Shown: piece after piece, positions 29,928 through 48,074 of the stretch
Position numbering within the stretch: the stretch's first letter is position 1
Layout: each line of letters begins with the position of its first letter
Source: Gemmatimonadota bacterium
GTDB lineage: Bacteria; Gemmatimonadota; Gemmatimonadetes; Gemmatimonadales; Gemmatimonadaceae
Direction: 5' to 3'
Length of the DNA stretch: 64,000 nt
Assembly: GCA_016871895.1 (NCBI GenBank)
Contig: VHBO01000009.1
Location: 1 to 64,000 of the forward strand
Notes under the pieces: model-generated
The model's database searches: none
What the model saw: the letters and a program-made list of their open reading frames with translations, nothing else
What the model was told of the DNA's origin: nothing
Translations under genes and position numbers: made by a program

Positions 29928-32900
29928 GGGAGGGGTCGGATGCGTGCCGCCCGCTGCGAGTCGGTGGGCGTCAGGAGCCCGCCGCGCAGCGCACGGAGGT
30001 GATTGACGAGGACGTCGAGGTCGATCACGCCGAGTTCCTCGACCACAGCCTCCGGGCCGAGCGCGGCGCCGTCGCCGCCGGCGACGAGGAAGTCGGTCAT
30101 CACCAGGCGATAACGTCGCCGGTCATCGAGCGTGCGGCCATCGTTCAACCGGATCTCGCGCAGGCGAGACCCCGACGGCGCCGCCGGGTCGAAGGTCAGA
30201 CTCACCCCGGAGATGTGGTAGCGGATCCCGCGGCCGGCGACGAGCGCCTCGAGGTAGCTCCGAAGCGCCCGACCGGGGAGCGTCACGACGACGAGGCGAT
30301 TGGCGAACGGCTGCACCTCGTACACATCGCCCCAGGTGATCGGCCCCGCGCGGAGGTCGGTGCGGATGCCGCCGTTGTTCATCACGGCCACGTCGCCGGC
30401 CCCTGCGGCGCGCTGCGCGTCAGCGATGAGGTTCCCGAGCGCGTACTGGTCCCCGCGACGCGGGAGCGCCTCGGTCGCCTGCGCCACGATCGCCCCGACC
30501 CGAGCTGCGACCGCCGACTCCGCCGCCTCGACGAGGGCGTCGACCGCCGGGTCCTTCGGCAGGCTGTCGCTGACCACGGCGCGGACCTCCGGCAGTACGC
30601 CGGCGCCGTCGGCGGGGAGGTCGATGATCCCGATCGCCCAGCCGCTCGAGCGCGCCTGCACGATCGGGATCCCGTTCACGATGGTCGACACCGCGGAATG
30701 CGTGTGCCCGCTCACGATGGCGTCGACGGCGCCGCGGTCGAGGCGGTTCGCGACGTCGATGATCTCGCCGGTGCACCGTCCGTTCGTGCAGAAGGCGCCC
30801 ATATGCGCGACGACCACCACCCGCTCCGCCCCGCGGGCCCGCAGCGCGCGCGCCCGCGCCTGCACCACGGGCACCGGGTCGGCGAAGCGGAGGTCCGCGA
30901 CCTGCGTGGGCATCGTCGTCCGCGGCGTGGCCGGATCCGCGATGCCGATCACACCGACGCGCATCCCGTCGACGACGAGCAGCGTGTCATCGGGGATCCA
31001 CGGCACGTCGCGGCCGTCCGCATAGGTCACGTTCGCGCCGAGGATCGGCGCCGCGAATTCGCGCATCCGAGCGCGGAGGGTGTCCTGCCCCCAGTCGAAC
31101 TCGTGGTTTCCCAGCGCGCCGGCCTGTACGTCGAGCGCTTCGAGCACCGGGACCACCGTCCGTCCGTAGGCGAGGTTCGACGCCGCGGTCCCTTGGAAGA
31201 GATCGCCGCCGTGCAGCACGAGCGGCACGCAGCTCGGCGCGCACTCCGCGGCGGCCCGGGTGAGTGCGGTCGCGAGCTCCGCCGCACCGCCGCGGTTCCC
31301 GACGTTGCCGTCCGGCCGTGCGGTGAAGGCGCCGTGGAAGTCGTTGATGGTGAGCACCCGGAGCCCGCGACGCGGCGCGCGCAGCGTCCAATTCACCTCG
31401 CCAATCTCCGTCGGCCGGAGCACGCCCCGACGGCGAACTTCCGCGATGAGGAGGTCACGGATCTCAGTCGGCGACTCGAACACCACGGGCGCGCCGCGCA
31501 GCATCGCGTAGCCGCCCCCGCCCGACGCGCGGTAGTTGTTCACCGCGACGGTGAACGAATCGGTGTCCGCGACGGGTCGGCCGCGGACCTCGAGCCGCGT
31601 GATGCGATGCCCCATCGGTCGCCCGAGATCCATCTCGTACGTCGCGCCGGCGAGGAGATCGAAGTTGTAGCCGGGGATCCGCGGGTCCGGGACGGCGCGG
31701 AGCCCGCCGGCGCCATCGCGTTCCACCAGCCAATAGCGCGCGCTGTGCTCAAGGAAGGCGCGGACCTGCGCCCCGGAGAGTCGAAGGGCACGCAGCGTGT
31801 TCTCGTACGGGTAGAGCTGGGCGATCTGCGCGACGGTCACCGGCCCCGCCGGGATCGTCGCGTCCAGCGTGAAGGCGGAGGCGATGCTCAGCTCGGCGCC
31901 GGAGGCCCGGAGCTGGGTCTCCTGGATGAGGTCGATGAGCGGGAGGTCCCGTACCCGAGCCGAATCGGTGCGGAACTCCCCGTCGGCGCGGCCGATCACG
32001 GCGGTCGAGTGGGCGATCGCCGCGCGATGCGCCCGCTCCACGGCACGGACGACCGCCGCCTGCTCCGCGTGCCCGCGCGCTTGGACGAGGGTGCCGCGCT
32101 TCGTCGTCACCTGCCAGCGCCCATCGCGCCGCGCGAGCGCGACCGTGGCGACCGCGACGCTCGTCGCCCAGTTGCGCGGCTGCACGACGAGGACGCCGTT
32201 GATGGTCGTGTCGGCGACCTCGCGATGCGAATGGCCGATGACCAGCACGTCGATCCCCGGCACCTCCCGGGCGACGCGTGCCATCGGATTCTCCGACGGC
32301 ACGCCGGTGGAGACGGAATCGTACGACGCCTCACCATCGAGCCCCGCGTGCGCGACGACCACGACGAGATCGGCGCCCGCCGCCCGGACCCGCGGGATCT
32401 CCGCGGCGACCGCCGCGGCGATGTCACGGACCGTGACGCGCCCCCGGAGGTGGTCGCGGTCCCAGACCATCGCGCCGGGGTTCGTGACGCCGATGATGGC
32501 GATGGTGACGCCCGCCCGCGTGACGATGGCGGACCCCGGGAACGCCTTCCCCGAATCGAGACGGTCGGCGTTCACGGCGAGGAACGGGAAGCGCGCCTGC
32601 GCCCGCGCGCGGTCGAGCGTCGCGACGCCGTAATTGAACTCGTGGTTCCCGACCGCCGCCGCGTCGTACCCCATCGCGTTCATCGCCGCGACGACCGGGC
32701 TCGGCGCGAGCGAATCGACCCGCGCGGCGACGTACGTCATCGGGTTCCCCTGCAGGAGGTCCCCTGCGTCGACGAGGACCACCCGGCCAGGCGCGGCGCG
32801 GCGGAGCGAGTCGACGATGGTGGCCGCGCGCGCGAGGCCGCGCACCGGGTCGGCGGCGTTCGCGTAATAGTCCCAGCCGCGCAGTCGGCCGTGAACGTCG

Positions 32901-32998
32901 GTGGTGGCAGCGATCGCGAGCTCGACGGTGCCCTGGGCACCGAGCGGCACGGCGAAGGAGAGGGCGGCGGCCAGCGCCGACAACCGGACGCGAGTCAT
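29924..32998 (-). CDS. Tandem 2',3'-cyclic phosphodiesterase/5'-nucleotidase (YfkN-like)
   Basis: 1024 residues, signal peptide ending VPLGAQ. Two complete UshA/CpdB-type modules lie in tandem. Module 1 (~25-520): TTDVHGRL, DAGDLLQG, GNHEFNYG, VAHAG, GHSHRE, then a 5'-nucleotidase C domain with YPYENTLRALRLSG and NYRASGGGGYAML. Module 2 (~540-1010): NDFHGAF, HGGDLFQG, GNHEFDWG, VAHMG, SGHTHS, then NNGGIRTDLRAGPITWGDVYEVQPF. Metal ligands are intact in both. The first module looks like the cyclic-phosphodiesterase type, the second like the 5'-nucleotidase type, as in Bacillus YfkN. It releases phosphate and nucleosides outside the cytoplasm. It is the first gene of the salvage operon. Confidence 0.93.
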   Translation of the reverse strand: MTRVRLSALAAALSFAVPLGAQGTVELAIAATTDVHGRLRGWDYYANAADPVRGLARAATIVDSLRRAAPGRVVLVDAGDLLQGNPMTYVAARVDSLAPSPVVAAMNAMGYDAAAVGNHEFNYGVATLDRARAQARFPFLAVNADRLDSGKAFPGSAIVTRAGVTIAIIGVTNPGAMVWDRDHLRGRVTVRDIAAAVAAEIPRVRAAGADLVVVVAHAGLDGEASYDSVSTGVPSENPMARVAREVPGIDVLVIGHSHREVADTTINGVLVVQPRNWATSVAVATVALARRDGRWQVTTKRGTLVQARGHAEQAAVVRAVERAHRAAIAHSTAVIGRADGEFRTDSARVRDLPLIDLIQETQLRASGAELSIASAFTLDATIPAGPVTVAQIAQLYPYENTLRALRLSGAQVRAFLEHSARYWLVERDGAGGLRAVPDPRIPGYNFDLLAGATYEMDLGRPMGHRITRLEVRGRPVADTDSFTVAVNNYRASGGGGYAMLRGAPVVFESPTEIRDLLIAEVRRRGVLRPTEIGEVNWTLRAPRRGLRVLTINDFHGAFTARPDGNVGNRGGAAELATALTRAAAECAPSCVPLVLHGGDLFQGTAASNLAYGRTVVPVLEALDVQAGALGNHEFDWGQDTLRARMREFAAPILGANVTYADGRDVPWIPDDTLLVVDGMRVGVIGIADPATPRTTMPTQVADLRFADPVPVVQARARALRARGAERVVVVAHMGAFCTNGRCTGEIIDVANRLDRGAVDAIVSGHTHSAVSTIVNGIPIVQARSSGWAIGIIDLPADGAGVLPEVRAVVSDSLPKDPAVDALVEAAESAVAARVGAIVAQATEALPRRGDQYALGNLIADAQRAAGAGDVAVMNNGGIRTDLRAGPITWGDVYEVQPFANRLVVVTLPGRALRSYLEALVAGRGIRYHISGVSLTFDPAAPSGSRLREIRLNDGRTLDDRRRYRLVMTDFLVAGGDGAALGPEAVVEELGVIDLDVLVNHLRALRGGLLTPTDSQRAARIRPLP

Positions 32999-33156: not shown

Positions 33157-33783
33157 ATGACCCCTCTCATCATCGGCATCGCCGGCGGCAGCGGCTCCGG
33201 GAAGTCCACCGTGGCGCGACAGATCGCTGCCTCCCTCTCCGGGGCGCGGGTCGCGTTCCTGGACATGGACGCGTACTACCGCGACCATCCGCATCACTCG
33301 ATGGACGAGCGGCGACATATCAACTGGGACCATCCCGACGCCTTCGACCTCGGGTTACTCGCGGATCACCTCGCGGCGCTCGGCCGTGGCGAGGCCATCG
33401 CCAAGCCCGTCTATGATTTCGTCGCGCATCGGCGCGCGGCGGAGTCGCTCCCGATCGAACCGGCGGACGTCATCGTCATCGACGGGATCCTGCTGTTCGT
33501 CGACCCGCGCGTCCGCGAGGCGTGCGCCATCAAGGTCTACGTCGACACCGACCCGGACATCCGCCTCGTGCGCCGTATCCGCCGCGACATGGCGATCCGC
33601 GGCCGACCGCTCGAGGAGATCCTCGACCAGTATCTCACGACGGTGCAGCCGATGCACCTGCAGTTCGTCGAGCCGAGCAAACGCTACGCTGACCTGATCA
33701 TCCCACACGGCGGCGAGAACGCCATCGCGATCGACCTCCTCCTCGGATCGATCCACCGGCGGCTCGCAGGAGCGCGGGGGTGA
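33157..33783 (+). CDS. udk: Uridine kinase
   Basis: 208 residues from ATG 33157 (MTPLIIGIAGGSGSGKST); the in-frame GTG upstream overlaps the regulatory region. The P-loop GIAGGSGSGKST, LDMDAYYRD, NWDHPDAFD and RRIRRDMAIRGRPLEEIL are those of the uridine kinase/phosphoribulokinase family, of usual length for Udk. It phosphorylates uridine/cytidine with NTP in the cytosol. The stop overlaps the phoB start (GTGA), tying nucleoside salvage to the phosphate regulators, and the divergent operon is also nucleotide salvage. Confidence 0.93.
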   Translation: MTPLIIGIAGGSGSGKSTVARQIAASLSGARVAFLDMDAYYRDHPHHSMDERRHINWDHPDAFDLGLLADHLAALGRGEAIAKPVYDFVAHRRAAESLPIEPADVIVIDGILLFVDPRVREACAIKVYVDTDPDIRLVRRIRRDMAIRGRPLEEILDQYLTTVQPMHLQFVEPSKRYADLIIPHGGENAIAIDLLLGSIHRRLAGARG

Positions 33784-34487
33784 CGAAGGCGGCGACCGAG
33801 GCTGACCGGATCCTGGTCGTCGACGATGAGCCCGACATCGTCGCCTTGGTCGCGTATCACCTGGCCAAGGCGAAGTATCGGGTGGCGACCGCGTCCACCG
33901 GCCCCGATGCGCTGGCGATGGCGGCCCGTGAGCGGCCTTCGCTCATCGTCCTCGACGAGATGCTCCCCGGCCTCTCGGGGTTCGACGTGTTGGCGCGCCT
34001 CCGCGCTGACCGAGAGACGGCGAGCGTCGGCGTGCTGATGCTCACCGCCCGGAAGGAGGAAGCTGACCGGATCCGCGGACTCGAGCTCGGCGCGGACGAT
34101 TACCTGACGAAACCGTTCAGCCCGCAGGAACTCGTCCTACGCGTCGGCGCCATCCTGCGGCGCGGCCAGACGAAATCGGAAGGGAACGACACGCTCCGGA
34201 TCGGCCCCATCACGATCCAGCGCGCGGCGCACCGCGTGGCGGTCAACGGACACGAGGTCGAATTGACCCCGACGGAGTTCAAGCTCCTCCTGACGCTCGC
34301 CGAGCGGCGTGGTCGGGTTCAAGCTCGCGCCCATCTCCTGGAAACGGTGTGGGAAGCGGCCCCCGACATCCAGACGCGGACGGTGGATATGCACGTCCAG
34401 CGACTCCGCACGAAGCTCCATCCGGCCGGCGACCTCATCGAGACCGTGCGTGGCTTCGGGTATCGCCTCGCGGCGAAGGACGGGTAA
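33780..34487 (+). CDS. phoB: Response regulator of PhoB/OmpR family
   Basis: 235 residues from GTG 33780. The receiver domain has ILVVDDEPD, the phospho-Asp in LIVLDEMLPG, LMLTARKEE and DYLTKPFSP. The C-terminal winged helix has VELTPTEFKLLLTLAERRGRVQ, TVDMHVQRLRTKL and VRGFGYRL. Subfamily PhoB is supported by the coupled PhoR-type kinase and the surrounding phosphate genes. It is predicted to bind the 11-bp-period GTTAC/GTGAC repeats reported here. Confidence 0.9.
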   Translation: MTKAATEADRILVVDDEPDIVALVAYHLAKAKYRVATASTGPDALAMAARERPSLIVLDEMLPGLSGFDVLARLRADRETASVGVLMLTARKEEADRIRGLELGADDYLTKPFSPQELVLRVGAILRRGQTKSEGNDTLRIGPITIQRAAHRVAVNGHEVELTPTEFKLLLTLAERRGRVQARAHLLETVWEAAPDIQTRTVDMHVQRLRTKLHPAGDLIETVRGFGYRLAAKDG

Positions 34488-34493
34488 TCGGCC

Positions 34494-36206
34494 GTGCGGC
34501 TGACGCAGCGACTCCTGCTCGGTGCCCTGCTCGTCGTCGGATTCCTCGCCGCGCTCATCGTGACGGTCGTCGACCGACAGTTCACCGCACGGCTGAGCGA
34601 GGACGCGACGACCTTTCTCGCGCGCGAAGCCCGGCTGGTCGGTGAGCTCTGGGAGCGCGAGCCTGAGGACCCGGATGCGCTCGCGGACCGCACTGGCGCG
34701 GCGCTCGGCCGGCGTGTCACGCTCGTCGACAGCGAGGGCCGGGTCGTCGGCGATTCAGAATTCGACGACGAGCCGTTGTCGGCGTTGCAAAACCACGCCA
34801 CCCGCCCGGAGATCGTGGCCGCGAACCGCACCGGCACTGGGATGGCGCGCCGCGCCTCGCCCTCGACCGGTGCCGAGGAGCTCTACGTGGCGGTCGTGAT
34901 CCCGGCCCGTGGAGTCGCCCGCGTCTCGCTGCCGACGGCCAGCCTCGATCAGGTCATCCGGTCCGCGCGACGCGATATCGCGACGGCCGCCCTCCTCGCG
35001 CTCCTTGGTGCGCTGGCGATCGCCCTCGTCTTCTCGCGCTCCGTCTCGCGCCCGGTCGAGGAGCTGCGCGACGTCGCACAGGCGCTGGCCGACGGCGACC
35101 TGGAGCGACGTCCCTCGCTGCGGGCACCCGGCGAAGTCGGCGACCTCGCGGTCGCGCTCCGCCGACTCGCCGAGCAGCTCTCCGCACGGCTTCGTGCCCT
35201 GCAGGCCGATGAGTCCTTGCTCGTCCAACTGACCGAGTCCCTCAACGAGGGTGTACTCGCGATCGGGACCGGCGGCTCCGTCGTCCGGATCAATGAGACC
35301 GCGCGACGCCTGCTCGGCGTCCAAGCCAGGCTTCCGTTCTCGGTCGACCTCCTCCCACGGGAGGTCACGCTTCGGGAGGCGGTCACCGCCGCGTTCGCGG
35401 GGGAGACGACCGATGGCGCCGAGGTCATCATCGCCGGGCGCACTCTAAACGTCACGGCGCGCCCCCTCGCCGACGGTGGCGCGGTGCTCGCGCTCTTCGA
35501 CCTAACGCGGGTCCGCCGGCTCGAGGCGGTCCGACGCGACTTCGTGGCGAACGTCTCGCACGAGCTCCGCACGCCGCTGACGATCGTCGGCGGGTTCGCC
35601 GAGACCCTCGCCGAGGGGGATGTCCCGTCCGAGGTGCGGCAGCAGTTCGCTGACCGAATCCTCGGGAACACGCGCCGGATGCAACGCATCGTCGATGACC
35701 TGCTCGACCTCTCCCGGATCGAATCGGGCGGGTGGGTACCGAATCCGGTCCCCGTGGATCTCTCCGGCGTGACGAGCGAGGTGATCGCCTCCGCGCGGGA
35801 TGCCGCCACCGCGAAAGGGATCGATCTACTGGTACACATCGCAGCCGACGCGGCGGTCGCGCACGCGGACCCCACCGCACTGCGCCAGGTCCTCGGCAAC
35901 CTCGTCGACAATGCCGTGCGGCACACGGCGACGGGGACCGTGACGCTCTTTTCGCGCGCGCACGAGGCGGGCATCGAGGTCGGGGTCCGCGACACCGGGA
36001 TCGGAATCGGCGCGTCCCACCTGCCGCGCATCTTCGAACGCTTCTATCGCGTGGACCCCGCGCGCTCACGGGAAGCCGGTGGCACCGGCCTCGGGCTCGC
36101 CATCGTGAGGCACCTCGTCGAAGCCCATGGCGGGCGCGTGCGCGCGGAGAGCACGGAAGGGGTGGGAACGACGATCGTGGCTCGCTTCCCTCACGCGCGC
36201 GCGTAG
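34494..36206 (+). CDS. phoR: Sensor histidine kinase, PhoR type
   Basis: 570 residues from GTG 34494, 6 bp after phoB. An N-terminal membrane helix, a periplasmic region (~30-155), a second helix (ALLALLGALAIALVFSRSV) and a HAMP segment are followed by a PAS-like region (LLVQLTESLNEGVLAI), a HisKA domain with the phospho-His in FVANVSHELRTPLTIVGG, and a HATPase domain with NLVDNAVRHT, DTGIGIG and GGTGLGLAIVRH. The extended periplasmic region is larger than in E. coli PhoR and may sense something directly. Its natural partner is the PhoB next to it. Confidence 0.9.
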   Translation: MRLTQRLLLGALLVVGFLAALIVTVVDRQFTARLSEDATTFLAREARLVGELWEREPEDPDALADRTGAALGRRVTLVDSEGRVVGDSEFDDEPLSALQNHATRPEIVAANRTGTGMARRASPSTGAEELYVAVVIPARGVARVSLPTASLDQVIRSARRDIATAALLALLGALAIALVFSRSVSRPVEELRDVAQALADGDLERRPSLRAPGEVGDLAVALRRLAEQLSARLRALQADESLLVQLTESLNEGVLAIGTGGSVVRINETARRLLGVQARLPFSVDLLPREVTLREAVTAAFAGETTDGAEVIIAGRTLNVTARPLADGGAVLALFDLTRVRRLEAVRRDFVANVSHELRTPLTIVGGFAETLAEGDVPSEVRQQFADRILGNTRRMQRIVDDLLDLSRIESGGWVPNPVPVDLSGVTSEVIASARDAATAKGIDLLVHIAADAAVAHADPTALRQVLGNLVDNAVRHTATGTVTLFSRAHEAGIEVGVRDTGIGIGASHLPRIFERFYRVDPARSREAGGTGLGLAIVRHLVEAHGGRVRAESTEGVGTTIVARFPHARA

Positions 36207-36210
36207 GGTC

Positions 36211-36226
36211 GTTACACGGCCGTGAC
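36211..36226 (+). promoter_or_regulatory. Predicted PhoB operator upstream of the second TonB receptor
   Basis: GTTAC-ACGGCC-GTGAC, a perfect match to the form at 19678, lying 92 bp before the ATG and oriented toward it. It begins only 5 bp after the phoR stop codon. Confidence 0.65.
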
Positions 36227-36317
36227 GGCTCCGTCGGGGAGCCGAGACGGGACCGAGGGACGTTTCGGGTGCGGTGCCAATGCCGCCTTTCCACTCGCCC
36301 CGATCCACGAGCCGCCG

Positions 36318-39089
36318 ATGCGCCGTGTCTTAGTAGCCGTCCGACTCCTCATCCTGAGCGCGCTGGCCGTGCGCGCCGCCCTCGCCCAGACACCGACCTC
36401 GGGTCGCATCGTCGGCCGAGTGATCGACGCCGCCACCGGCGCCGGCCTTAGTGACGCCGGCATCCAGGTGGTCGGGACCACGCTCGGCACGATGTCAGGC
36501 GTCGAGGGGCGGTTCACCCTCGGTGCCGTCCCCGCCGGCACAGTCACATTGCAGGTCCGCCGCATCGGGTACGCCCCGAAGACGATCACCGGAATCTTCC
36601 TCGACGCCGGGAAGACGGTGCAGCAGGACGTCTCGCTGAGCGCCGCGAACGTGCAGCTCGCGGCGCAGGTGGTCACCGCCTCCGCCGAGCGGGGCTCCGT
36701 GAACGACGCGCTCGACGCCCAGCGCACCTCGACCAACGTCGTCAGCAGCATCACCGCCGAGCAGATGGCGAAGAGCCCGGACGGCGATGCCGCGCAGGCC
36801 GTCGGCCGTGTCTCCGGCGTCAGCGTGCAGGATGGCCGGTATGTCTTCGTGCGCGGCCTCGGCGACCGCTACACCCAGACCTCGCTTAACGGCGCGCGCA
36901 TCCCGAGCCCTGAGCCCGAGAAGAAGGTGGTCCCGCTCGACCTGTTCCCGGCGGGGCTCCTGCAGACCATCACGACGATCAAGACCTTCACGCCGGACCA
37001 GCCCGGCGACTTCTCGGGCGCGCAGGTCGACATCCAGACGCGCGAATTCCCGACGCAGCGGACCTGGGCCTTCAGCTCCAGCACCGGCGGATCCGACGCC
37101 GTCGTGGGCCGCTCGATGCTGATGCCGGGCCGCGCGCGGGGCGACCTGCTCGCCCTAGGGTCGGAGCCCCGGGCCCGCCCCGGCTTCATCGCCGGTTTCG
37201 GAAACTTCTCGCAGACGCGACCCGGACAGGCGGATTTCAACCGGATGGTGTCGGAGTTCCGGAACGCCTGGACCCCGCAGCAGCAGGAAGGAGCGCTGAA
37301 CGGCTCGACCTCGCTCTCGGTCGGCGGCAGCGACCCCGTCTTCGGCCAGACCGTCGGCTACCTCGTCTCCGGGACGTACTCGTACGCACAGGAGGCGAAG
37401 GTCGACCAGGTGCGCGCCCTCGCGCTCGCGCAGGGCGGGAGCACCCCGTCCGAGGTCGATCGCTATGAGGGGTCGACCGGACGGTCGAGTGTGCTCTGGG
37501 GTGGTCTCGCGAATTTCAGCACGCTCGTCGGCACGCGGACGCGGATCGCCCTCAACAACACGTACAATCGGACGATGGACTCCGAGGCGCGGCAGGAGCG
37601 CGGCCTCTCGGAGAACCTCGGCATCCCGTTCACGATCACGCGACAGAAGTACGTCGAGCGGAGCATCCGTTCGACGCAGCTCCTCGTGCAGGCCGACCCG
37701 ACCGCTTCGCAGAAGCTCGAGCTCTCGCTCTCGACGTCGGGGGTGACGCGCGTGGAACCCGATCGGTCGGAGTTCGTGCAGGCCACCTTTGCCGATCCGG
37801 CGACCGGGGCGACGATGGCCCCGCAGTGGTTCGCGGCGTCGAACGAGGGGGCGGTGCGCACCTTCAGCGACCTCTCGGAGCGGGCGTACGAGGCCCGCGG
37901 CTTCTGGCGCCTGCAGCTGGGCGAGGTGGGGCGATCGACGGCGATCAAGGTTGGCGGCCTCGGCCGGCGCGCGATCCGCGATGCCTCGAGCACCGCGTAC
38001 AGCATCAGCGGGAGCGGGCTCACAGCGACGGACCGCGAGCAGCAGGCGGAGCAGCTCTTCGCCCGGTTCACCGGGGCCGGCGACCGCGTCTGGAACGTGA
38101 CGCCGATCGGCGTCGGCGGCACGTACGACGCCTCGGATTACACAGTCTCGGGCTTCGCGATGATCGAGCGCGAGTTCAGCCCGACCTGGCAGCTGATCAC
38201 CGGCGCCCGCGTCGAGTACTCGAACGTCCTCGTCCGGGCCGAACCGACGGTCGGCGCCCGCTCGAGCACCAATCCGATCTTCACCGATGTGCTGCCGGCG
38301 CTCGCCTTGACCTGGCGCCCGACCGACGCGACGAACCTCCGGCTCTCCGCGTCGCAGACCGTCTCGCGTCCCGAGTACCGTGAGCTCGCGCCGATCATGT
38401 ACCGCGAGGTCATCGGCTTCGACAACGTCTTCGGCAACCCGAACCTCAAGCGGGCGCTGATCCAGAACCTTGACCTCCGCTGGGAGCACTATCCGAATGC
38501 CGGCGAAGTGCTGAGTGTCGCCCTCTTCGCGAAGCGCTTCACGAATCCGATCGAGCGGGTGTATCAGGGCTCGTCCGGAACGCGCATCATCACCTTCCTG
38601 AACGCCGACGGCGCGGACAACTACGGGGTGGAACTCGAGGCGCGGAAGTCGCTCGGGATGCTCGCCGAGGCGCTGACGAACGTGACGCTCTCCACGAACG
38701 CGACGGTGATGGCGAGCAGCATCCGCCTCGCGCCGGGCGCGAGTGCGGTGACGAACACCCGCCGCGCGATGGTGGGCCAGGCGCCCTATATGTTCAATAC
38801 CGGGCTCACCTGGACCTCGAACAGCGGCCAGAGCAGCGCGACGCTCCTCTACAACGTCGTCGGGGCGCGCATCACGGAGGCGGGCGAGCTCCCGCTGCCT
38901 GACGTGAAGGAGCTCGAGCGCCATATCGTGGACTTCTCCCTGCGCGTGCCGGTCTCGGACCGCCTCTCGCTCCGCGCCGATGCGAAGAACCTCCTCGACG
39001 CCCCGTACCGCTTCGTGCAGGGACCGGTGACCCGGGAGTCGTACCGGATGGGCCGGGGCTTCACGCTGGGGCTCAGCTGGAAGCCGTGA
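36318..39089 (+). CDS. TonB-dependent receptor in the phosphate cluster
   Basis: 923 residues from ATG 36318, signal peptide ending ALAQTPTS. A carboxypeptidase-regulatory-like domain (GRIVGRVIDAATGAGLSDAG, RRIGYAPKTITG) precedes the plug (VVSSITAEQMAKS, AQAVGRVSGVSVQDGRYVFVRGLGDRYTQT, LFPAGLLQTITTIKTFTPD) and the barrel ending MGRGFTLGLSWKP. The VFVRGLGDRY motif is typical of a class of receptors with unknown ligands. It follows phoBR, carries a perfect Pho box, and is followed by two lipoproteins and pstS. An organophosphate or phosphate-complex ligand is therefore the best guess. Confidence 0.92.
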   Translation: MRRVLVAVRLLILSALAVRAALAQTPTSGRIVGRVIDAATGAGLSDAGIQVVGTTLGTMSGVEGRFTLGAVPAGTVTLQVRRIGYAPKTITGIFLDAGKTVQQDVSLSAANVQLAAQVVTASAERGSVNDALDAQRTSTNVVSSITAEQMAKSPDGDAAQAVGRVSGVSVQDGRYVFVRGLGDRYTQTSLNGARIPSPEPEKKVVPLDLFPAGLLQTITTIKTFTPDQPGDFSGAQVDIQTREFPTQRTWAFSSSTGGSDAVVGRSMLMPGRARGDLLALGSEPRARPGFIAGFGNFSQTRPGQADFNRMVSEFRNAWTPQQQEGALNGSTSLSVGGSDPVFGQTVGYLVSGTYSYAQEAKVDQVRALALAQGGSTPSEVDRYEGSTGRSSVLWGGLANFSTLVGTRTRIALNNTYNRTMDSEARQERGLSENLGIPFTITRQKYVERSIRSTQLLVQADPTASQKLELSLSTSGVTRVEPDRSEFVQATFADPATGATMAPQWFAASNEGAVRTFSDLSERAYEARGFWRLQLGEVGRSTAIKVGGLGRRAIRDASSTAYSISGSGLTATDREQQAEQLFARFTGAGDRVWNVTPIGVGGTYDASDYTVSGFAMIEREFSPTWQLITGARVEYSNVLVRAEPTVGARSSTNPIFTDVLPALALTWRPTDATNLRLSASQTVSRPEYRELAPIMYREVIGFDNVFGNPNLKRALIQNLDLRWEHYPNAGEVLSVALFAKRFTNPIERVYQGSSGTRIITFLNADGADNYGVELEARKSLGMLAEALTNVTLSTNATVMASSIRLAPGASAVTNTRRAMVGQAPYMFNTGLTWTSNSGQSSATLLYNVVGARITEAGELPLPDVKELERHIVDFSLRVPVSDRLSLRADAKNLLDAPYRFVQGPVTRESYRMGRGFTLGLSWKP

Positions 39090-39108
39090 GCGGCCGCCCG
39101 CCTCGGGC

Positions 39109-39124
39109 GTGACGGGCTCGTGAC
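39109..39124 (+). promoter_or_regulatory. Predicted PhoB operator upstream of the lipoprotein gene
   Basis: GTGAC-GGGCTC-GTGAC, two identical pentamers 11 bp apart, 88 bp before the ATG. It abuts a strong hairpin that starts at its last base. Confidence 0.6.
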
Positions 39125-39161
39125 GAAAGCGCCGCCGTGCAGAGACACGGCGGCGCTTTCG
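39124..39161 (+). terminator. Strong hairpin after the TonB receptor gene
   Basis: A perfect 16-bp inverted repeat (arms 39124-39139 and 39146-39161) with a 6-nt loop and a GC-rich base that includes CTTTC. It lies 35 bp behind the receptor stop codon and probably terminates its transcript. It also sits between the Pho box and the next gene, so a new transcript starting at the box would meet it in its leader. Confidence 0.65.
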
Positions 39162-39212
39162 TTCCAGCAGGACGTCACGTCCTCTCGTCTCCCTCACCCT
39201 GGTACTGACCCC

Positions 39213-40625
39213 ATGCGAACCCTGCCCTGGCGCGTATCCGGCCTCGCGGCCCTCCTCTTCGTCGCCGCCTGCGATCAGAGCGAGACCACGACCGAGCCGG
39301 AGATCCCGACCGGTGCGGCCGTGATCTCCTCCGACATCACGATCAACCGGACGCTGTTCAAGGACACCACGTACACCCTCTCGGGCTTCATCAAGGTCAC
39401 GAACGGCGCGACCCTGACGATCCAGCCAGGCACAGTCATCAAGGGGGACTACAACATCGTCGGCTCGTCGCTCTTCATCACGCGCGGCGCGAAGATCCAG
39501 GCCGCCGGCACGGCGGCGGCACCGATTGTCTTCACCTCCTCGCAGCCGGCCGGCCAGCGGCTCGCGGGCGATTGGGGCGGCGTGATCATCATCGGCAATG
39601 GCATCATCAACCGCGCGGACCCGGTCATCCTCGAGGGGACGGGCACCGGCACGAACAACCCGCAGCAGGTCTACAGCGCGGGGACGAACAACGCCGACAA
39701 CAGCGGCACCCTCAAGTACGTCCGTATCGAGTTCGCCGGCTATGCGACCGCGACGGACCAGGAGCTCAACACCCTCACGCTCGCCGCGGTTGGCAGCGGT
39801 ACCACCGTCGAGTATGTCCAGTCCCTCTATGGGCTCGACGACTCCTTCGAGTGGTTCGGCGGCGCGGTCGACGCCAAGTACCTTGTCTCGTACGAGAGCG
39901 GCGATGACCACTTCGATATGTCGGAAGGGTACCAGGGCCGCCTCCAATACCTGATCTCGTACCAGTCGGCGAAGCCGTCGATCCGCCCGGGCGCCGGCAA
40001 CGCGTCCTCGGACCCGCAGGCGATCGAGAACGACGGATGCAGCGGCACCGGGTGCACCGCCGGCCAGAACTCGACCCCGTTCACGACCCCCGTCGTCGCG
40101 AACTTCACCCTCGTCGGCCCGGGCACCGGCACGGACATCGACGCGACCAGCGGCGGCTACGGGATGATCCTCCGTCGCGGCACCGGCGGCTACTACGTGA
40201 ACGGCGTCCTCGCGCGCTTCCCGAAGGGCGCGATGGGGCTCCGGGACACGCTCTCGACCCGCGTGCGCCTCACCGACGGCCTCCTCGACATCCGCCATCT
40301 CTTCATCGCCGAGACGCCGTCCATCTTCACCTCGGCCTCGGGCGGCTTCGTGCTCGCCGACTCCGTGGCGCGCAACATCGTCCGCGACGCGGCGGTGACC
40401 ACGGCCTCGCTCTTCACGACCCTCACCCTCCCGGCCACGACCACCGCGTCGTTCGACTGGACGCCGGCGGCGACGGCGGCGATCGCGACGGGCGGGCTGC
40501 AGACCTTCTCTGGGAATCTCGCCACCGCGGCTGGGACGGCGGTGACCGGGACGGCGTTCCGTGGGGCCGCGGCCCCGGGCGGCGCCAAGTGGTGGGCGGG
40601 GTGGACCGCCTACGCGAAGAACTGA
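39213..40625 (+). CDS. Lipoprotein with repetitive beta-solenoid-like sequence, function unknown
   Basis: 470 residues from ATG 39213 with a lipoprotein signal ending LLFVAACDQS. The mature part contains glycine- and threonine-rich repeats typical of a right-handed beta-helix: GFIKVTNGATLTIQPGTVI, GDWGGVIIIGNGIIN, GTLKYVRIEFAGY, VEYVQSLYGLDDSFEWFGGAV. Similar surface lipoproteins occur near TonB receptors in Bacteroidetes-like genomes but have no clear function. The last third is a Thr/Ala-rich domain. It has its own Pho-box-like site, so a surface role in phosphate uptake is likely but unproven. Confidence 0.8.
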   Translation: MRTLPWRVSGLAALLFVAACDQSETTTEPEIPTGAAVISSDITINRTLFKDTTYTLSGFIKVTNGATLTIQPGTVIKGDYNIVGSSLFITRGAKIQAAGTAAAPIVFTSSQPAGQRLAGDWGGVIIIGNGIINRADPVILEGTGTGTNNPQQVYSAGTNNADNSGTLKYVRIEFAGYATATDQELNTLTLAAVGSGTTVEYVQSLYGLDDSFEWFGGAVDAKYLVSYESGDDHFDMSEGYQGRLQYLISYQSAKPSIRPGAGNASSDPQAIENDGCSGTGCTAGQNSTPFTTPVVANFTLVGPGTGTDIDATSGGYGMILRRGTGGYYVNGVLARFPKGAMGLRDTLSTRVRLTDGLLDIRHLFIAETPSIFTSASGGFVLADSVARNIVRDAAVTTASLFTTLTLPATTTASFDWTPAATAAIATGGLQTFSGNLATAAGTAVTGTAFRGAAAPGGAKWWAGWTAYAKN

Positions 40626-40640
40626 CGGTACGTTCCTCGG

Positions 40641-40687
40641 CGAGCGGCCGGTGCCCGGACCGGGTGTCGGCCGCTCGTCGTTTCTTC
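40641..40687 (+). terminator. Terminator after the lipoprotein gene
   Basis: CGAGCGGCCG (40641-40650) pairs with CGGCCGCTCG (40668-40677); the 17-nt loop holds a further CCCGG/CCGGG pairing. The stem is followed by TCGTTTCTTCC, a broken T-tract. It lies 16 bp behind the stop codon. Confidence 0.7.
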
Positions 40688-40691
40688 CCTC

Positions 40692-40707
40692 GTGACCCGA
40701 CTGTGAT
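40692..40707 (+). promoter_or_regulatory. Near-match Pho operator before the second lipoprotein gene
   Basis: GTGAC-CCGACT-GTGAT, one mismatch, 11-bp spacing. Its 3' end overlaps the ATG at 40706. If it is a real operator, the coding start must lie further downstream. Confidence 0.4.
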
Positions 40708-41371
40708 GCGACGTCCGCTCCTCTTCCTCCGACTCCCACGCGCGATCGCGACCGTGGTGTCGCGTGCGTACGGGATCGGGATGTTCTACCTCGCCGGCAC
40801 GGTGTTCGTCACCGCCTGTGACGCCCGGTCCGCCGCCGAGACCGGCGCCGCCGATGCGCCCGCCGGCGTCATCGACAGCGCGCTGCCGATCCCGGTGCTC
40901 CTCGAGCGCTTCCGCGCCACCACGACCGACACCCCGAGCGTGCTCCGCGGCGGCGCCGAACGCCCCGAGGTGCTGGTCCGCGCCCTCCTTGCCGCCGTCA
41001 GCGCCCGCGATACGGCGACGCTCCGAGCGCTGGTGATGACGCGCGCCGAGTTCGCCTGGCTCTACTATCCGTTTACGAAGTTCGTCTCCCGGCCGTACGA
41101 ACTCGGTCCGGAGCTCGTCTGGCTCCAGCACGTCGCCGGGAGCGAGACGGGCGCCGTGCGGCTGCTTGAGCGGTACGGTGGCGCGCGGCTCCGCTTCGAG
41201 GCGCTCCTCTGTGCGGACAGCGTGCTCGTCGAGGGGCCGAACCGGATCACCCCGGGGTGTCGCGTGCGGTTCGCCGCCGCCGATTCCGCGCCGCGGACGA
41301 TGCAGCTCTTCGCCGGTTTGCTCGCGCGCGACGGTCGCTACAAGTTCCTCTCGTACGCCAACGACCTCTGA
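40706..41371 (+). CDS. Small lipoprotein-like exported protein, function unknown
   Basis: 221 residues from ATG 40706; a GTG at 40757 or ATG at 40781 would give a shorter leader and leave space for the Pho-box-like site. A hydrophobic stretch GMFYLAGTVFVTACDAR ends in a likely lipobox Cys. The mature protein is about 180 residues, with a helical region and LYYPFTKFVSRPYELGPELVWLQ and FEALLCADSVLVEG. I do not recognise it. It lies between a Pho-regulated lipoprotein and pstS (10 bp gap to pstS), so it is probably part of the same uptake system. Confidence 0.6.
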   Translation: MRRPLLFLRLPRAIATVVSRAYGIGMFYLAGTVFVTACDARSAAETGAADAPAGVIDSALPIPVLLERFRATTTDTPSVLRGGAERPEVLVRALLAAVSARDTATLRALVMTRAEFAWLYYPFTKFVSRPYELGPELVWLQHVAGSETGAVRLLERYGGARLRFEALLCADSVLVEGPNRITPGCRVRFAAADSAPRTMQLFAGLLARDGRYKFLSYANDL

Positions 41372-41381
41372 CCGAGGTGCC

Positions 41382-42476
41382 GTGCTCCGTCGCCTGCCCC
41401 CTTCGCTCAGCTGGTTGCGCGCGCTCCTGATCCTCTGGATCGGGGCGCTGGCGGGATTCAGCGCGGGTGCCGAATGGATCCGCCGACGTCCGGCGCCATT
41501 GCCGCCCCCGTCGGGTGGTATCGATCTGACCGGCGCCGGCGCGACCTTCCCCTTCCCGCTCTACCGGAAGTGGTTTGTGGGCTATGCCGCCGCGACCGGT
41601 GTCCGCATCAACTACTACTCCGTCGGCTCGACCCCTGGGCTCTCGCTGATGCTCGCCGACGGCGTGGATTTCGGCGCGAGCGACCGGCCCCTGACCACCG
41701 CAGAGCTCAGACAGGCTCCCTGCCGACCCCTCGACATACCGACGGCGGTCGGTGGGGTCGCGATCATCGTGCATTTGCCGGCATTCGGTGACGCGCTTCG
41801 ACTGGACGCCGAGGTCCTTGCCGAGATCTTCGCCGGCACGATCCGGCGGTGGGACGATCCGAAGGTGCTCGCCTTGAACCCGGGTGCCTCTCTTCCCGCG
41901 CGCGCGATCCATCCGGTGCATCGTGGTCGCGGGAGTGGGAGCGGAACGGTCGCGATGGTCGAGGCGTACCTCCAGCAATCGCCGCGCCAGTCCGCGGCGG
42001 GTTCGCACTGGGCCGTGGGTGACAGCGTCGACGGCAACGAGGGGGTCGCCGCACAGGTGCAGGCCGTGCCCGGCAGCATCGGATTCGTCGAAGCGTCCTA
42101 CGCCGATCATCCCCGGCTGCGGGTGGTCGCGCTCAGGACCAGGGCGGGCTCCTTCGTGCGCCCCGACGCCGGGACCCTGTCGCGTGCCGCGGATGTAGGG
42201 CTCACGGGCGCCGACATCGATACCGTGCGGTTCCTCGACGGAGGACAAGACCCGAGGGCCTATCCGATCACCGGCGTGACGCGCCTCGTCGCATCCGGCG
42301 CGCTCCGGGATTCGATCCGCGCCCGTCACTTCATCGCCTTCGCCCGGTGGGCGCTCCGGGAGGGGGCACCGACGGCAACGGCACTCGGCTTCGTACCCTT
42401 GCCGCGCGCCGCACAGGCGCGCCTCGCCCGACGGCTTGATGCGGTCGTCCCCGGCCGCTGTGAGACGCGCTCGTGA
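41382..42476 (+). CDS. pstS: Phosphate-binding protein PstS-like
   Basis: 364 residues from GTG 41382. An N-terminal membrane/signal segment (LRALLILWIGALAGFSAGAEW) precedes the PBP-like domain with IDLTGAGATFPFPLYRKWF, VGSTPGLSLMLADGVDFGASDRPL, AEIFAGTIRRWDDPKV, HRGRGSGSGTVAMVEAYL and GSIGFVEASYA. GAGATFPFPLY and the GSG phosphate loop are diagnostic of PstS. It captures Pi in the periplasm. No pstC, pstA or pstB follows in this window; ppx overlaps its stop (GTGA). Confidence 0.9.
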   Translation: MLRRLPPSLSWLRALLILWIGALAGFSAGAEWIRRRPAPLPPPSGGIDLTGAGATFPFPLYRKWFVGYAAATGVRINYYSVGSTPGLSLMLADGVDFGASDRPLTTAELRQAPCRPLDIPTAVGGVAIIVHLPAFGDALRLDAEVLAEIFAGTIRRWDDPKVLALNPGASLPARAIHPVHRGRGSGSGTVAMVEAYLQQSPRQSAAGSHWAVGDSVDGNEGVAAQVQAVPGSIGFVEASYADHPRLRVVALRTRAGSFVRPDAGTLSRAADVGLTGADIDTVRFLDGGQDPRAYPITGVTRLVASGALRDSIRARHFIAFARWALREGAPTATALGFVPLPRAAQARLARRLDAVVPGRCETRS

Positions 42477-44116
42477 CGCACCCCCGACCCATCCGGATGC
42501 CCGATGCACGTCGAGCGATTCCATCCGCCGATGGCGGCGAGGCGGTGCCGATGGGTGGCCCCTCGTCGGCGCAGCGCATCGCGGCGATCGACATCGGCTC
42601 CAACTCGATCCGTCAGATCGTGGCCGATGTCTCCCCCGACGGCACCATCCGGGTGATCGACGAGATGAAGGCGGCACCGCGCCTCGGGCGTGGCGTGACC
42701 GTGACCCACCGGCTCGACGACGCGGCGATGGAGGAGGCGGTCGATGCGCTCACGCGGATGGCGACGCTCGCGCGCACGTTGGGCGCCGCACGGATCGCCG
42801 TCGTCGCGACGAGCGCGGTGCGGGATGCGGAGAACGGGGCGGCGTTCCTCTCCCGGGTCCGGCGCGAGACCGGCCTGCGTCCGCAGCTACTCGACGGGGA
42901 GGCGGAGGCGCGGCTCGCCTTCCGGTCGGCGCTGGCGCACTTCGAGCTCGGACGTGGCCGTGCGGTCGTGATGGATATCGGCGGCGGTTCCCTCGAGCTG
43001 GCGCTCTCCGCTGAGGGGGTCCTCGAGCGCCTGGAGAGCTTTCCCTTCGGCGCGATCCGGCTCTCGGAGGAGTTTCTCGAGGGCCGCGCGCCGGGCAAGG
43101 GCATCAAGAAGCTGCGACGGCACGTGCGTCAGGCCATCAAGAAGGTGCTCCCCGTGCGCGACTGGCGTGGGGCGGAGGTGATCGGATCCGGTGGGACCTT
43201 CACGAACCTCGCCGGGATGCACTTGGCGCGGCAGGGCGTCCAGATCCGGGGGGTGCACGGGACGCGCATCCCTCGGCACGAGGTGGAGCTCCTCCTCGAG
43301 CGTCTCGCCGTCATGCCCGTGGCGGACCGGCTCCTCGTGCCCGGACTGAACGCCGGTCGAGCGGACATCATCGTGGCCGGGCTCGCGGTGGCGGCGGAAG
43401 TCCTCGCGCGTGTCGAGCCACGGGAGCTGACCGCCTCGGCGTACGGGATCCGTGAAGGCCTCCTCCTCGAGTCCGCGCGGGTGACACCCCTGGTGGCGGA
43501 TCCGGGCGAAGCCCGAGCGCGGGCGGTCCACGCGTTCGCCGAGCGGTGTCACGCGGAACTGCCCCACGCCCGGCAGGTACGGGAGATGGCGCTTCAGCTC
43601 TTCGACGCGATCGGCCATCGGATCGGTTGCACTCCGGAGGATCGGCAGACGCTCGCCGACGCCGCCCTGCTCCACGACGTCGGCTATCACATCAACTACG
43701 AGCAGCACCATAAGCACTCGTTCCACCTGATCCTCCACGCGGACCTCCTCGGCATCGCGCCCGATGAGCAGCAGGTGATCGCGCACGTGGCGCGCTATCA
43801 CCGGGGGAAGCCGCCGCGGCGGCAACACGCGGCGTGGTGGGCGCTGGGGCGCGCCGCGCGGGAGCGCATCGCGCGGCTCGCCGCGCTGCTTCGCATCGCG
43901 GATGGGCTCGACCGCGGCCACGCGGGGGCCGTCGAGCGCGTGAAGGTGCGGTGGCTCGAGCGGGCGCTGCGAATCACGCCGGTGCCTCGACGGGGGAGCG
44001 ACCCACTCCGTCTCGAAGTCTGGGGTGCCGCCCGCAAGTCCGGGCTCCTGTCAGCGGTCGCTGGGCTCCCGGTCGAACTCGTCGCGCCGGACGGCGCGGT
44101 CCTGCGCGACGACTGA
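42473..44116 (+). CDS. ppx: Exopolyphosphatase / pppGpp phosphohydrolase with HD domain
   Basis: 547 residues from GTG 42473 (GTGA overlap with pstS); M at 42551 is an alternative start just ahead of the first motif. The two-lobed actin-like domain has AAIDIGSNSIRQIV, AVVATSAVRDAENG, VVMDIGGGSLELAL and EVIGSGGTFTNLA. A C-terminal HD domain (LHDVGYHINYEQHHKHS) follows, as in Ppx/GppA of many bacteria. It hydrolyses terminal phosphates of polyphosphate. It converges with ppk, the two stop codons being 2 bp apart. Confidence 0.92.
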   Translation: MTHPRPIRMPDARRAIPSADGGEAVPMGGPSSAQRIAAIDIGSNSIRQIVADVSPDGTIRVIDEMKAAPRLGRGVTVTHRLDDAAMEEAVDALTRMATLARTLGAARIAVVATSAVRDAENGAAFLSRVRRETGLRPQLLDGEAEARLAFRSALAHFELGRGRAVVMDIGGGSLELALSAEGVLERLESFPFGAIRLSEEFLEGRAPGKGIKKLRRHVRQAIKKVLPVRDWRGAEVIGSGGTFTNLAGMHLARQGVQIRGVHGTRIPRHEVELLLERLAVMPVADRLLVPGLNAGRADIIVAGLAVAAEVLARVEPRELTASAYGIREGLLLESARVTPLVADPGEARARAVHAFAERCHAELPHARQVREMALQLFDAIGHRIGCTPEDRQTLADAALLHDVGYHINYEQHHKHSFHLILHADLLGIAPDEQQVIAHVARYHRGKPPRRQHAAWWALGRAARERIARLAALLRIADGLDRGHAGAVERVKVRWLERALRITPVPRRGSDPLRLEVWGAARKSGLLSAVAGLPVELVAPDGAVLRDD

Positions 44117-44118
44117 CC

Positions 44119-46299
44119 TCAGTCCTCGCGGACGACCGGGAAGGCCGCACTGGAGGAGGGCGGCCGGTTCGGCAGGCGCCCCCGCTCCAGCGGGCTCGAC
44201 GGGATGACGAACGCCCCGCTCTCCCGGCTGCCGCCCCAAGCATCGCGGAGCAGGAGCCGATGGACGCTCCGCTCCCCACGCACCCTGGGCTCGCGCTGCC
44301 GGTACGTGCCGTCGGGCAGGAGATCCCAGGCCTGGCGGTTATCGCTCAGGTAGACCTCGAGGAGCGAGCGGAGGCGGGCCTGGAACACCGGGTCCGCGAT
44401 CGGCGTGACCACCTCGACCCGGCGATCGAAGTTCCGTGGCATCCAGTCGGCTGAACCGAAGAAGAGCTCGGCGGCCCCATCATTCGCGACCCACCAGATC
44501 CGCGAGTGTTCGAGGAACCGTCCGACGATACTGACGACGCGGATGCGTTCGGAGAGGCCCGGAACCCCAGGTCGCAGGCAGCAGATGCCGCGGATGATGA
44601 GATCGACCTCGACGCCCGCCGCTGACGCACGATAGAGCGCCGCGATGACGGCCGGGTCGACGAGGGCGTTCATCTTCGCGACGATGCGACCCGGCCGGCC
44701 GGCGAGGGCAAGGCCGGTCTCCCGCTCGATCAATGCCATCACGCGGCTCCGGAGATTCACCGGCGCGACGAGCAGCCGACGATAGCTCACGTTGCGCGCA
44801 TACCCCGTCAGCGCGTTGAAGAGGTCGCTGATGTCGGCGCCGATCTCCTCGTCGCAGGTGAGGAGGCTCAGGTCGGTGTAGATCCGCGCCGTCCGCGTGT
44901 TGTAGTTGCCCGTGCCGATGTGGACATAGCGGCGGATGCCGTCGGGCTCCCGGCGGACGACGAGCGCGGTCTTGGTGTGGGTCTTGAGCCCGGGTACGCC
45001 ATAGACCACGTGGACGCCGAACGATTCCAGCGTGCGAGCCCACGCGATGTTGTTCACCTCGTCGAAGCGGGCCTGCAGCTCGACGAGGACCGCGACCTGT
45101 TTGCCACGCTGCGCCGCCTCGGTGAGCGCCTGAACGATCGCCCCGTCCCCCGAGGTGCGGTACAGCGTCATCTTGATGGCGAGCACCTGCTCGTCCCTGG
45201 CGGCGGACTCGATGAACGTCTCTACCGACGCGCCGAAGGACTCGAAGGGATGGTGCAGGAGGACGGGACGCTCGCGGATCACATCAAAGATCGACCGACG
45301 GGCGTCGCGCAGTTCCGGCGGCACGGACGCGACGAGCGGTGGGTCGCGATGCTCAGGGAGGTCGAGTCCGCTGAGCGCGATGAGATCCCCCACGTCGAGC
45401 AGCGGCCCAGGCCGGTGCACCTCCCGGGGCGACAGCGGGGCCATCTCCGGCGGCTCGCTCGCCCGAAGTTCATCGAGGAGGAGCGTCTCGAGGTGCGCCG
45501 GGGTGCCGGCTTCGACCTCGAGACGCACCACCTCGCCAAACCGACGCTGAAAGAGTTGTTCCTCGATGGTCGCGAGCAGGTCCTCCGGCTCCTCGCTCGT
45601 GGAGAGGTCGAGGTCGGAATGGCGCGTCAGACGGAAGACGTGTGCGCCCGAGACCTCCATCCCGGGAAAGAGGGTCGGGAGATGCGACCGGATGAGCTCC
45701 TCCAGCGGGACATAGCTGGAGGGGCGCCCAGTCGGCACCCAGCGCGGGATGCTCTTCGGGACCTTCACACGCGCGAACCGCTCCTCGCCGCTCGCCGGGT
45801 CCCGCAGATCGACGGCCAGCGAGAGCGAGAGATTCGAGATGTACGGGAACGGATGTCCAGGGTCGACGGCGAGCGGGGTCAGGACGGGGTAGACCTGTGC
45901 GTCGAAGAACGCGTCGACCCGTGCCCGCTCGTGCGGGTCGAGCTCATCCACTCGCAGGAGCCGGACGCCGACCTCCCGCAGTCGCGGCAGGACCACCGCG
46001 TGCAGCGCGCGACTCGCCCGGTCAATCAAGGGACGGACCGTCTGGTCGATCCGGTCGAGCTGTTCCGCGGGGGACATCCCATCCGCCCCCCCCTGCTGGA
46101 CCCCGGCGGCGAGCTGGCGCCGGAGGCCGGCGACCCGGACCATGAAGAACTCGTCCAGATTCGAGTGGAAGATCGCGAGGAACTTCAGCCGCTCGAGGAG
46201 CGGCGTCCGGTCATCCTCCGCCTCGTGCAAGACCCGGGCGTTGAACGCGAGCCACGATAGCTCGCGGTTCAGGAAGGCCGCACGGTCCTCAGGACGCAC
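44119..46299 (-). CDS. ppk1: Polyphosphate kinase 1
   Basis: 726 residues. Domain order N, H, C1, C2: RAAFLNRELSWLAFNARVL, LHHPFESF, VLAIKMTLYRTSGD, the phospho-His region GLKTHTKTALVV and YVHIGTGNYN, and C-terminal FFGSADWMPRNFDRRVEV. It makes polyphosphate from ATP at the membrane/cytosol. It is the last gene of the phoU-like/pit/ppk operon (10 bp behind pit) under the predicted Pho box at 48040. Confidence 0.96.
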   Translation of the reverse strand: MRPEDRAAFLNRELSWLAFNARVLHEAEDDRTPLLERLKFLAIFHSNLDEFFMVRVAGLRRQLAAGVQQGGADGMSPAEQLDRIDQTVRPLIDRASRALHAVVLPRLREVGVRLLRVDELDPHERARVDAFFDAQVYPVLTPLAVDPGHPFPYISNLSLSLAVDLRDPASGEERFARVKVPKSIPRWVPTGRPSSYVPLEELIRSHLPTLFPGMEVSGAHVFRLTRHSDLDLSTSEEPEDLLATIEEQLFQRRFGEVVRLEVEAGTPAHLETLLLDELRASEPPEMAPLSPREVHRPGPLLDVGDLIALSGLDLPEHRDPPLVASVPPELRDARRSIFDVIRERPVLLHHPFESFGASVETFIESAARDEQVLAIKMTLYRTSGDGAIVQALTEAAQRGKQVAVLVELQARFDEVNNIAWARTLESFGVHVVYGVPGLKTHTKTALVVRREPDGIRRYVHIGTGNYNTRTARIYTDLSLLTCDEEIGADISDLFNALTGYARNVSYRRLLVAPVNLRSRVMALIERETGLALAGRPGRIVAKMNALVDPAVIAALYRASAAGVEVDLIIRGICCLRPGVPGLSERIRVVSIVGRFLEHSRIWWVANDGAAELFFGSADWMPRNFDRRVEVVTPIADPVFQARLRSLLEVYLSDNRQAWDLLPDGTYRQREPRVRGERSVHRLLLRDAWGGSRESGAFVIPSSPLERGRLPNRPPSSSAAFPVVRED

Positions 46300-47341: not shown

Positions 47342-47343
47342 GG

Positions 47344-47955: not shown

Positions 47956-48039
47956 GGTGGTGTCTGGCGTTGGAGGTGAGTCGAAGTTCCTTTGGAAGCT
48001 ACGCCTTCCCGGTCGGAGGCCGCAAACCACCGGGGCATT

Positions 48040-48055: not shown

Positions 48056-48074
48056 GTGCCCCAACCGCACACCC

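Follow-up and report, generated by a model that had tools for sequence, protein, structure and literature searches.

Organization and conservation of the phosphate locus

The window analysed here is a stretch of 64,000 nucleotides from a Gemmatimonadota bacterium of the family Gemmatimonadaceae (GenBank assembly GCA_016871895.1, contig VHBO01000009.1; genome G000, contig C9 of our set, a 2.28-Mb assembly that is 96% complete), and it carries a phosphate gene cluster around a phoB/phoR-like regulatory pair (Table 1). Downstream of this pair (33780-36206) are present, as the first-pass annotation of this DNA claimed, four genes in conserved order, which encode a TonB-dependent receptor, a β-solenoid lipoprotein, a 221-residue lipoprotein (the small lipoprotein below), and a PstS-like phosphate-binding protein. 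The set is considered, with fair probability, to be a module of the ElpS/CC0171 kind that is controlled by PhoB and scavenges phosphorus at the outer membrane, and in which inorganic phosphate (Pi) would enter the cell through a Pit permease and the PstS-like protein would be repurposed.

The gene order is kept across Gemmatimonadaceae. Among 41 related genomes the solenoid lipoprotein was found in 20 and the small lipoprotein in 19, and the receptor, solenoid, and small lipoprotein genes stand behind phoBR in most of the 17 genus-mates. In nearly all loci that were read closely the solenoid and small lipoprotein genes are adjacent and 3' of the receptor gene, mostly directly behind phoBR. The ratio of nonsynonymous to synonymous substitution rates (dN/dS) of the module genes is about 0.07–0.42 in five genus pairs, that is, below 1. 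The first-pass annotation had named a gene order unique to this genome as the finding that would speak against the module; since the order occurs in other Gemmatimonadota, the proposal survives on this point. An alternative order of the cluster was seen in a Gemmatimonas metagenome-assembled genome (L085:9466-16877), where the receptor, solenoid, and small lipoprotein genes are followed by phoB, phoR, and pstC/pstA-like genes.

Table 1. Genes and control elements of the phosphate cluster, numbered from the first letter of the window
Feature	Position	Strand	Basis or remark
Double 5'-nucleotidase/phosphoesterase, 1024 amino acids, putatively periplasmic	29924..32998	-	Pfam PF02872 and PF00149, two stretches each
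Uridine-kinase-family protein (udk)	33157..33783	+	PF00485, 155 bits; conserved order
phoB-like response regulator	33780..34487	+	Best family TIGR02154, 246.8 bits against a cut-off of 296.2
phoR/pnpS-like histidine kinase	34494..36206	+	Good match to TIGR02966, under the equivalog cut-off
Pho-box-like repeat TCGTTAC-ACGG-CCGTGAC	36209..36226	+	Upstream of receptor gene
TonB-dependent receptor, solenoid-partner group	36318..39089	+	Pfam CarboxypepD_reg, Plug, and barrel
Pho-box-like repeat GCGTGAC-GGGC-TCGTGAC	39107..39124	+	Upstream of solenoid gene
Terminator-like hairpin, 18-bp stem, abutting the second Pho box	39122..39163	+	Gap between receptor and solenoid genes
β-Solenoid lipoprotein, ElpS/F-form type	39213..40625	+	Lipobox, fold prediction, family searches
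Hairpin, 20-bp stem, then TTTCTT (terminator or attenuator)	40638..40680	+	Gap between solenoid and small lipoprotein genes
Small lipoprotein	40706..41371	+	Pfam/NCBIfam: no match
PstS-like phosphate-binding protein	41382..42476	+	TIGR00975, 238 bits (cut-off 205); hydrophobic N-terminal segment, lipobox absent
ppx-type exopolyphosphatase	42473..44116	+	PF02541, 191 bits; 4-bp overlap with pstS
Polyphosphate kinase (ppk1)	44119..46299	-	TIGR03705, 816 bits
Pit-type phosphate permease (PHO4)	46310..47395	-	PF01384, 297 bits
PitR/DUF47 PhoU-like regulator	47344..48030	-	PF01865, 87 bits; reading frame overlaps pit

Control region

The Pho-box pattern was taken as the direct repeat NYGTKRC-N4-NYGTKRC (7+4+7, 11-bp pitch), and the chance expectation was derived from first-order Markov shuffles. 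Such a repeat lies 5' of the receptor gene in 16/16 genomes, against 0.02 expected, and 5' of the solenoid gene in 16/19, against 0.05 expected, counts which are not independent trials because the genomes are related. The third site of the first-pass annotation, upstream of the small lipoprotein gene (40691..40708, + strand), was rejected as a Pho box, since the pattern is found at this place in 0/18 relatives; therefore two Pho-box-bearing units are recognized where the first-pass annotation had three, the receptor and solenoid units being retained. Upstream of pstS the pattern was seen in none of 12 genomes. The two conserved repeats support the earlier notion that PhoB likely controls an outer-membrane module, with the receptor and solenoid genes as the likely targets.

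Both gaps between the first three genes carry strong hairpins whose sequence varies between genomes: a stem of at least 10 bp is present between the receptor and solenoid genes in 16/19 relatives versus 6% of shuffles, and between the solenoid and small lipoprotein genes in 15/18 genomes versus 2% of shuffles. The simplest reading of this arrangement is that of two predicted starts driven by PhoB; transcription of the genes farther 3' (small lipoprotein, pstS, and ppx) would be by read-through and at a lower level.

The Pho box was also looked for upstream of phoB, ppk, pit, ppx, and the 5'-nucleotidase gene, and none was found; a single site before udk belongs to the locus L082. A genome-wide scan with the same pattern for further targets gave few sites, mostly unconvincing. 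A candidate Pho box just 5' of pitR (48040-48056, - strand) was observed in three of seven comparable loci, namely, the window, L069, and L070.

The receptor-solenoid pair

The solenoid protein has a lipobox, VAAC, ending at residue 20, and a lipobox-like motif occurs in nearly all relatives. Structure prediction, which the first-pass annotation had suggested as a check for both lipoproteins together with the receptor, gave for this protein a parallel β-helix in the AlphaFold2 (AF2) model (predicted local distance difference test, pLDDT, 86; predicted template modelling score, pTM, 0.88). The nearest Foldseek neighbours of the model are polysaccharide lyases, glycosidases/hydrolases, and phage tailspikes, none of them significant. 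No match was obtained for this protein in Pfam/NCBIfam, and the search of solved structures by sequence returned one weak leucine-rich-repeat match, judged to be due to chance.

The pairing with the receptor extends across phyla. From each species one genome was taken, and of the 80 best solenoid loci 76 extended far enough for the neighbouring genes to be judged; a TonB receptor gene adjoins the solenoid gene in 70 of these 76, mostly in Gemmatimonadota and Bacteroidota, to which the sample leans because the 80 are the highest-scoring entries of a capped list. In a tree that serves as a rough test, the partner receptors of several phyla group together and separately from the other sequences (Shimodaira-Hasegawa-like approximate likelihood ratio test, SH-aLRT, 98; 0/500 shuffles); row L001 of this tree is probably no receptor, and some of the rows used for comparison are doubtful or have long branches. 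The solenoid protein is 36% identical to its Indioceanicola homologue and 32% to that of Sphingomonas, and both of these loci contain, in this order, solenoid, receptor, gspC/N, gspD, and gspE genes. Tails of the type IX secretion system (T9SS) were found on two solenoid homologues, and near most Bacteroidota copies no phosphate gene was found.

The pair had been considered undescribed, and this part of the first-pass annotation does not hold, because the elpS-cc0171-gsp layout was published for Caulobacter and Sphingomonas alaskensis (PMC2996285) and the kinship of the F-form lipoproteins was published as well (PMC8115612). ElpS is induced by Pi starvation, is anchored at the surface as a lipoprotein, and is later released. 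The F-form lipoproteins of Flavobacterium johnsoniae are reported to be 31–36% identical to ElpS over about half of their length and belong to the strongest Pi-depletion genes of this species, the gene of one lying beside a receptor gene and that of another within the phoBR cluster (PMC8115612); induction of their receptor by Pi starvation is likewise published. A literature search combining Pho, β-helix, and TonB gave nothing further of use. Membership in SusCD/PusCD was rejected, since PF07980/PF14322 were unmatched (neither lipoprotein has a Pfam match) and the receptor scored 35.8 bits with TIGR04056 against a cut-off of 368.

Several variants of the pair were observed. Solenoid paralogues in L053:7301-9529 (G002) and L055:7944-10019 (G016) have a long N-terminal extension that by eye is like cohesin-/dockerin-type repeats, and in L053 a diverged receptor gene lies 4.5 kb upstream of the paralogue. 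The solenoid lipoproteins of the distant relatives L064, L065, L066, L068, L069, and L070 contain an additional fibronectin-III-like stretch at the N-terminus, which is absent from the window protein. On a Pseudoalteromonas plasmid (L073:1824-12001) a solenoid-receptor pair is located directly 3' of a dedicated ExbB-ExbD-TonB set.

The small lipoprotein

The small lipoprotein had no match in Pfam/NCBIfam and on its sequence is a new family. Its profile matches in 149/395 Gemmatimonadota genomes and 61/138 genera, the strong matches spanning several families. The model consists of helices and then a β-sheet (pLDDT 83, pTM 0.70); its likeness to NTF2-like folds is weak and insignificant, and the protein is possibly NTF2-like.

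PstS and the Pst components

The PstS-like protein matches solved PstS at E 9.6e-56. For PstC and PstA there was no match in the window's genome at E 0.001 (PstB and NptA-type transporters were not searched for), and in the one-contig genus-mate G011 the permease matches were only below cut-off, at 28 bits or less. PstA is above cut-off in 3/17 genus members, and no PhoU (PF01895) match was obtained in 12/17, a count that includes the window's genome. Since pstC, pstA, and phoU were not found, PstS here is without a known permease partner. For the same reason the uptake line drawn in the first-pass annotation, which led into pstS, is not supported as a line ending in a Pst transporter, either in this genome or in most of the genus, and the Pst transporter was rejected as the inner-membrane step of the window's genome because PstC and PstA were not found.

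Ten of the 14 genus members without PstA retain one PstS, in the module location wherever the locus was read; in the genus-mates L056, L058, L069, and L070 pstS is not in the module slot. These orphan PstS copies score 217–267 bits compared with mostly 340–411 bits for PstS of Pst operons, and together with one other Gemmatimonadota sequence they form a clade (support 100/99) that is divergent and fast-evolving, with branches longer than those of Pst-operon PstS. Their dN/dS is 0.15–0.26 in three genus pairs. The motifs GAGATFP, SVGS/T, DFGAxD, and RxxxS/TGT of the binding site, in which we take the residue roles to be those of E. coli PstS, are retained in nearly all orphan copies, and the Asp two residues past the binding Arg is replaced. 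At the place where module PstS of other genera has a lipobox, most of them have a hydrophobic N-terminal segment in which a GFAIGIEWIRSRP-like motif is conserved; judged by sequence, this segment may be a retained anchor or may be removed by AxG-type cleavage.

Relatives preserve a series of states. In L082 the order is phoBR-receptor-solenoid-small lipoprotein-pstS-pstC-pstA-phoU-ppx-ppk, and pstC and pstA follow directly 3' of the module pstS in L082, L208, and L213. Intermediate states are pstS-phoU-ppx in L084 and pstS-ppx in L081, and the genome G014 contains the module PstS plus a Pst operon. The full cluster of the L082 type is likely the ancestral state.

Pit, PitR, and other neighbouring genes

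A PHO4 permease gene with an adjacent gene for a DUF47 protein is present in the cluster, with overlapping reading frames, which is the arrangement expected of Pit-PitR; PF01865 (DUF47) is presumably equivalent to PitR. The nearby Pit/PitR pair is the more likely inner-membrane step for Pi. In Staphylococcus aureus PitR was shown to govern PhoPR, which offers a means of operating PhoR without PstSCAB-PhoU (PMC13170248), and by analogy PitR is the best candidate for signalling Pi to PhoR in the absence of Pst-PhoU.

In the PhoR-like kinase residues 41-136 give a weak sCache_like match, below cut-off, and an extracytoplasmic sensor domain is possible. The double 5'-nucleotidase consists of two complete tandem units (Metallophos and 5_nucleotid_C), and its gene is the divergent neighbour of udk-phoB-phoR, kept in most loci of the genus. 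The 4-bp overlap of udk with phoB (33157-34487) suggests one transcript for nucleoside salvage and the Pho regulator.

Proposed mechanism and alternative explanations

In Pi-starved cells PhoB would activate the receptor gene, and the second Pho box would drive the solenoid lipoprotein gene. The lipoprotein, predicted to act at the cell surface, would capture a phosphorus-bearing ligand and pass it to the partner receptor, which would import the phosphorus compound with TonB energy. Periplasmic phosphoesterases, for example, the neighbouring double 5'-nucleotidase, would then release Pi, which would enter via the Pit permease with PitR and be stored as polyphosphate through ppk1/ppx. As a guess from the 5'-nucleotidase and uridine kinase neighbours, nucleotides would be one phosphorus source. 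The small lipoprotein would have an accessory role in the envelope, and read-through of the hairpin would yield it at a lower level. The PstS-like protein would be the remnant of the full module-pstSCAB-phoU-ppx cluster still present in relatives; in the genus the permease would have been lost and the N-terminus changed, with selection keeping a Pi-binding role, as a relay to Pit or an input to PhoR.

Several observations weigh against this scheme. Caulobacter CC0171 was reported to be expressed in rich and poor medium alike, and deletion of elpS was reported to leave phosphatase activity unchanged. The proposed kinship of the solenoid family with ElpS rests on synteny and published homology, not on direct alignment. 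The phoB, ppk, and 5'-nucleotidase genes are without a conserved Pho box, and four genus-mates without PstA are also without any PstS, so the orphan PstS is dispensable.

The cargo may instead be another need of the Pi-starved cell, such as a siderophore, a metal, or a glycan, and PhoB control would then reflect stress and not a phosphorus cargo. This reading is favoured by the lyases, glycosidases, and tailspikes among the (insignificant) Foldseek neighbours, by the likeness of F-form lipoproteins to a polygalacturonase noted by the Flavobacterium authors (PMC8115612), and by most Bacteroidota copies, near which no phosphate genes were found; however, the pair is here densely surrounded by phosphate genes (phoBR, pstS, ppx, ppk, pit, pitR, and 5'-nucleotidase), and for low-Pi loci of F. 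johnsoniae that are uncharacterised, tight repression was reported when N and Fe were limiting (PMC8115612), which makes another cargo rather unlikely. It is still less probable that the pair moves Pi itself through the outer membrane and that the PstS-like protein passes it to Pit. The orphan PstS does retain its Pi-binding motifs, and the cluster includes Pit with PitR 4 kb downstream, but energised uptake of Pi would be unusual, because Pi normally passes outer membranes via porins, and to our knowledge no hand-over from PstS to Pit has been described.

The opposite explanation for the orphan PstS is that it no longer has a function and is decaying as a relic. The loss of pstS from the module slot in L056, L058, L069, and L070, the branches longer than those of Pst-operon PstS, and the replaced Asp point in this direction, while the dN/dS of 0.15–0.26 and the binding motifs and N-terminal GFAIGIEWIRSRP-like motif kept in most genus copies argue against decay, and we consider a relic unlikely. 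A wider proposal was also formulated, in which the genus lost PstCAB-PhoU and the leftover PstS became a periplasmic, probably membrane-anchored Pi sensor or relay serving PhoR or Pit, with ElpS-type supply and no ABC (ATP-binding cassette) transporter; taken as a whole it is regarded as doubtful. If this proposal is true, Pi sensing and uptake would run without any ABC transporter.

Significance and comparison with known systems

The ElpS-type pair, which is common in Bacteroidota, found in Proteobacteria, and poorly understood, is tied here to a complete phosphate cluster, and this setting is a clear context for finding its cargo. What is new is that the pair is joined to a small lipoprotein of a new family and to a PstS for which no permease genes were found. 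A genus with PhoB/PhoR-like regulators and PstS, in which the Pst permease and PhoU are undetected, offers a natural test of PhoR phosphate sensing. In a 2023 survey PstSCAB was named the main Pi route in Gemmatimonadota (PMC10581226); counting by pstS only could overstate this route for the genus.

Compared with PstSCAB-PhoU, the PstS domain is above the TIGR00975 cut-off and its binding motifs are retained; the differences are that PstC, PstA, and PhoU were not found in the window's genome and that a hydrophobic N-terminus replaces the lipobox. With PitA-PitR of S. aureus the locus shares a Pit permease and an adjacent PhoU-like regulator (PMC13170248), the function here being predicted from families and adjacency. 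Plant-associated Bacteroidetes were described as being without PstSABC altogether (PMC8115612). In PUSIII/PUSIV of F. johnsoniae (Fjoh_3856/3857 and the phoBR cluster) the likeness lies in a Pi-depletion-induced receptor with an ElpS-related lipoprotein, and PUSIV contains phoBR, as here (PMC8115612); a small lipoprotein of the present family and PstS were not reported there. The ElpS (CC0170)/CC0171 system of Caulobacter crescentus likewise combines adjacent lipoprotein and TonB receptor genes with a link to Pi starvation, and the published solenoid-receptor-gsp layout recurs in the alphaproteobacterial loci that encode members of the present solenoid family. However, the Caulobacter pair is followed by a type II secretion cluster, whereas in the window the receptor gene comes first, with its own conserved Pho box, and the pair stands behind phoBR and leads into the small lipoprotein and pstS.

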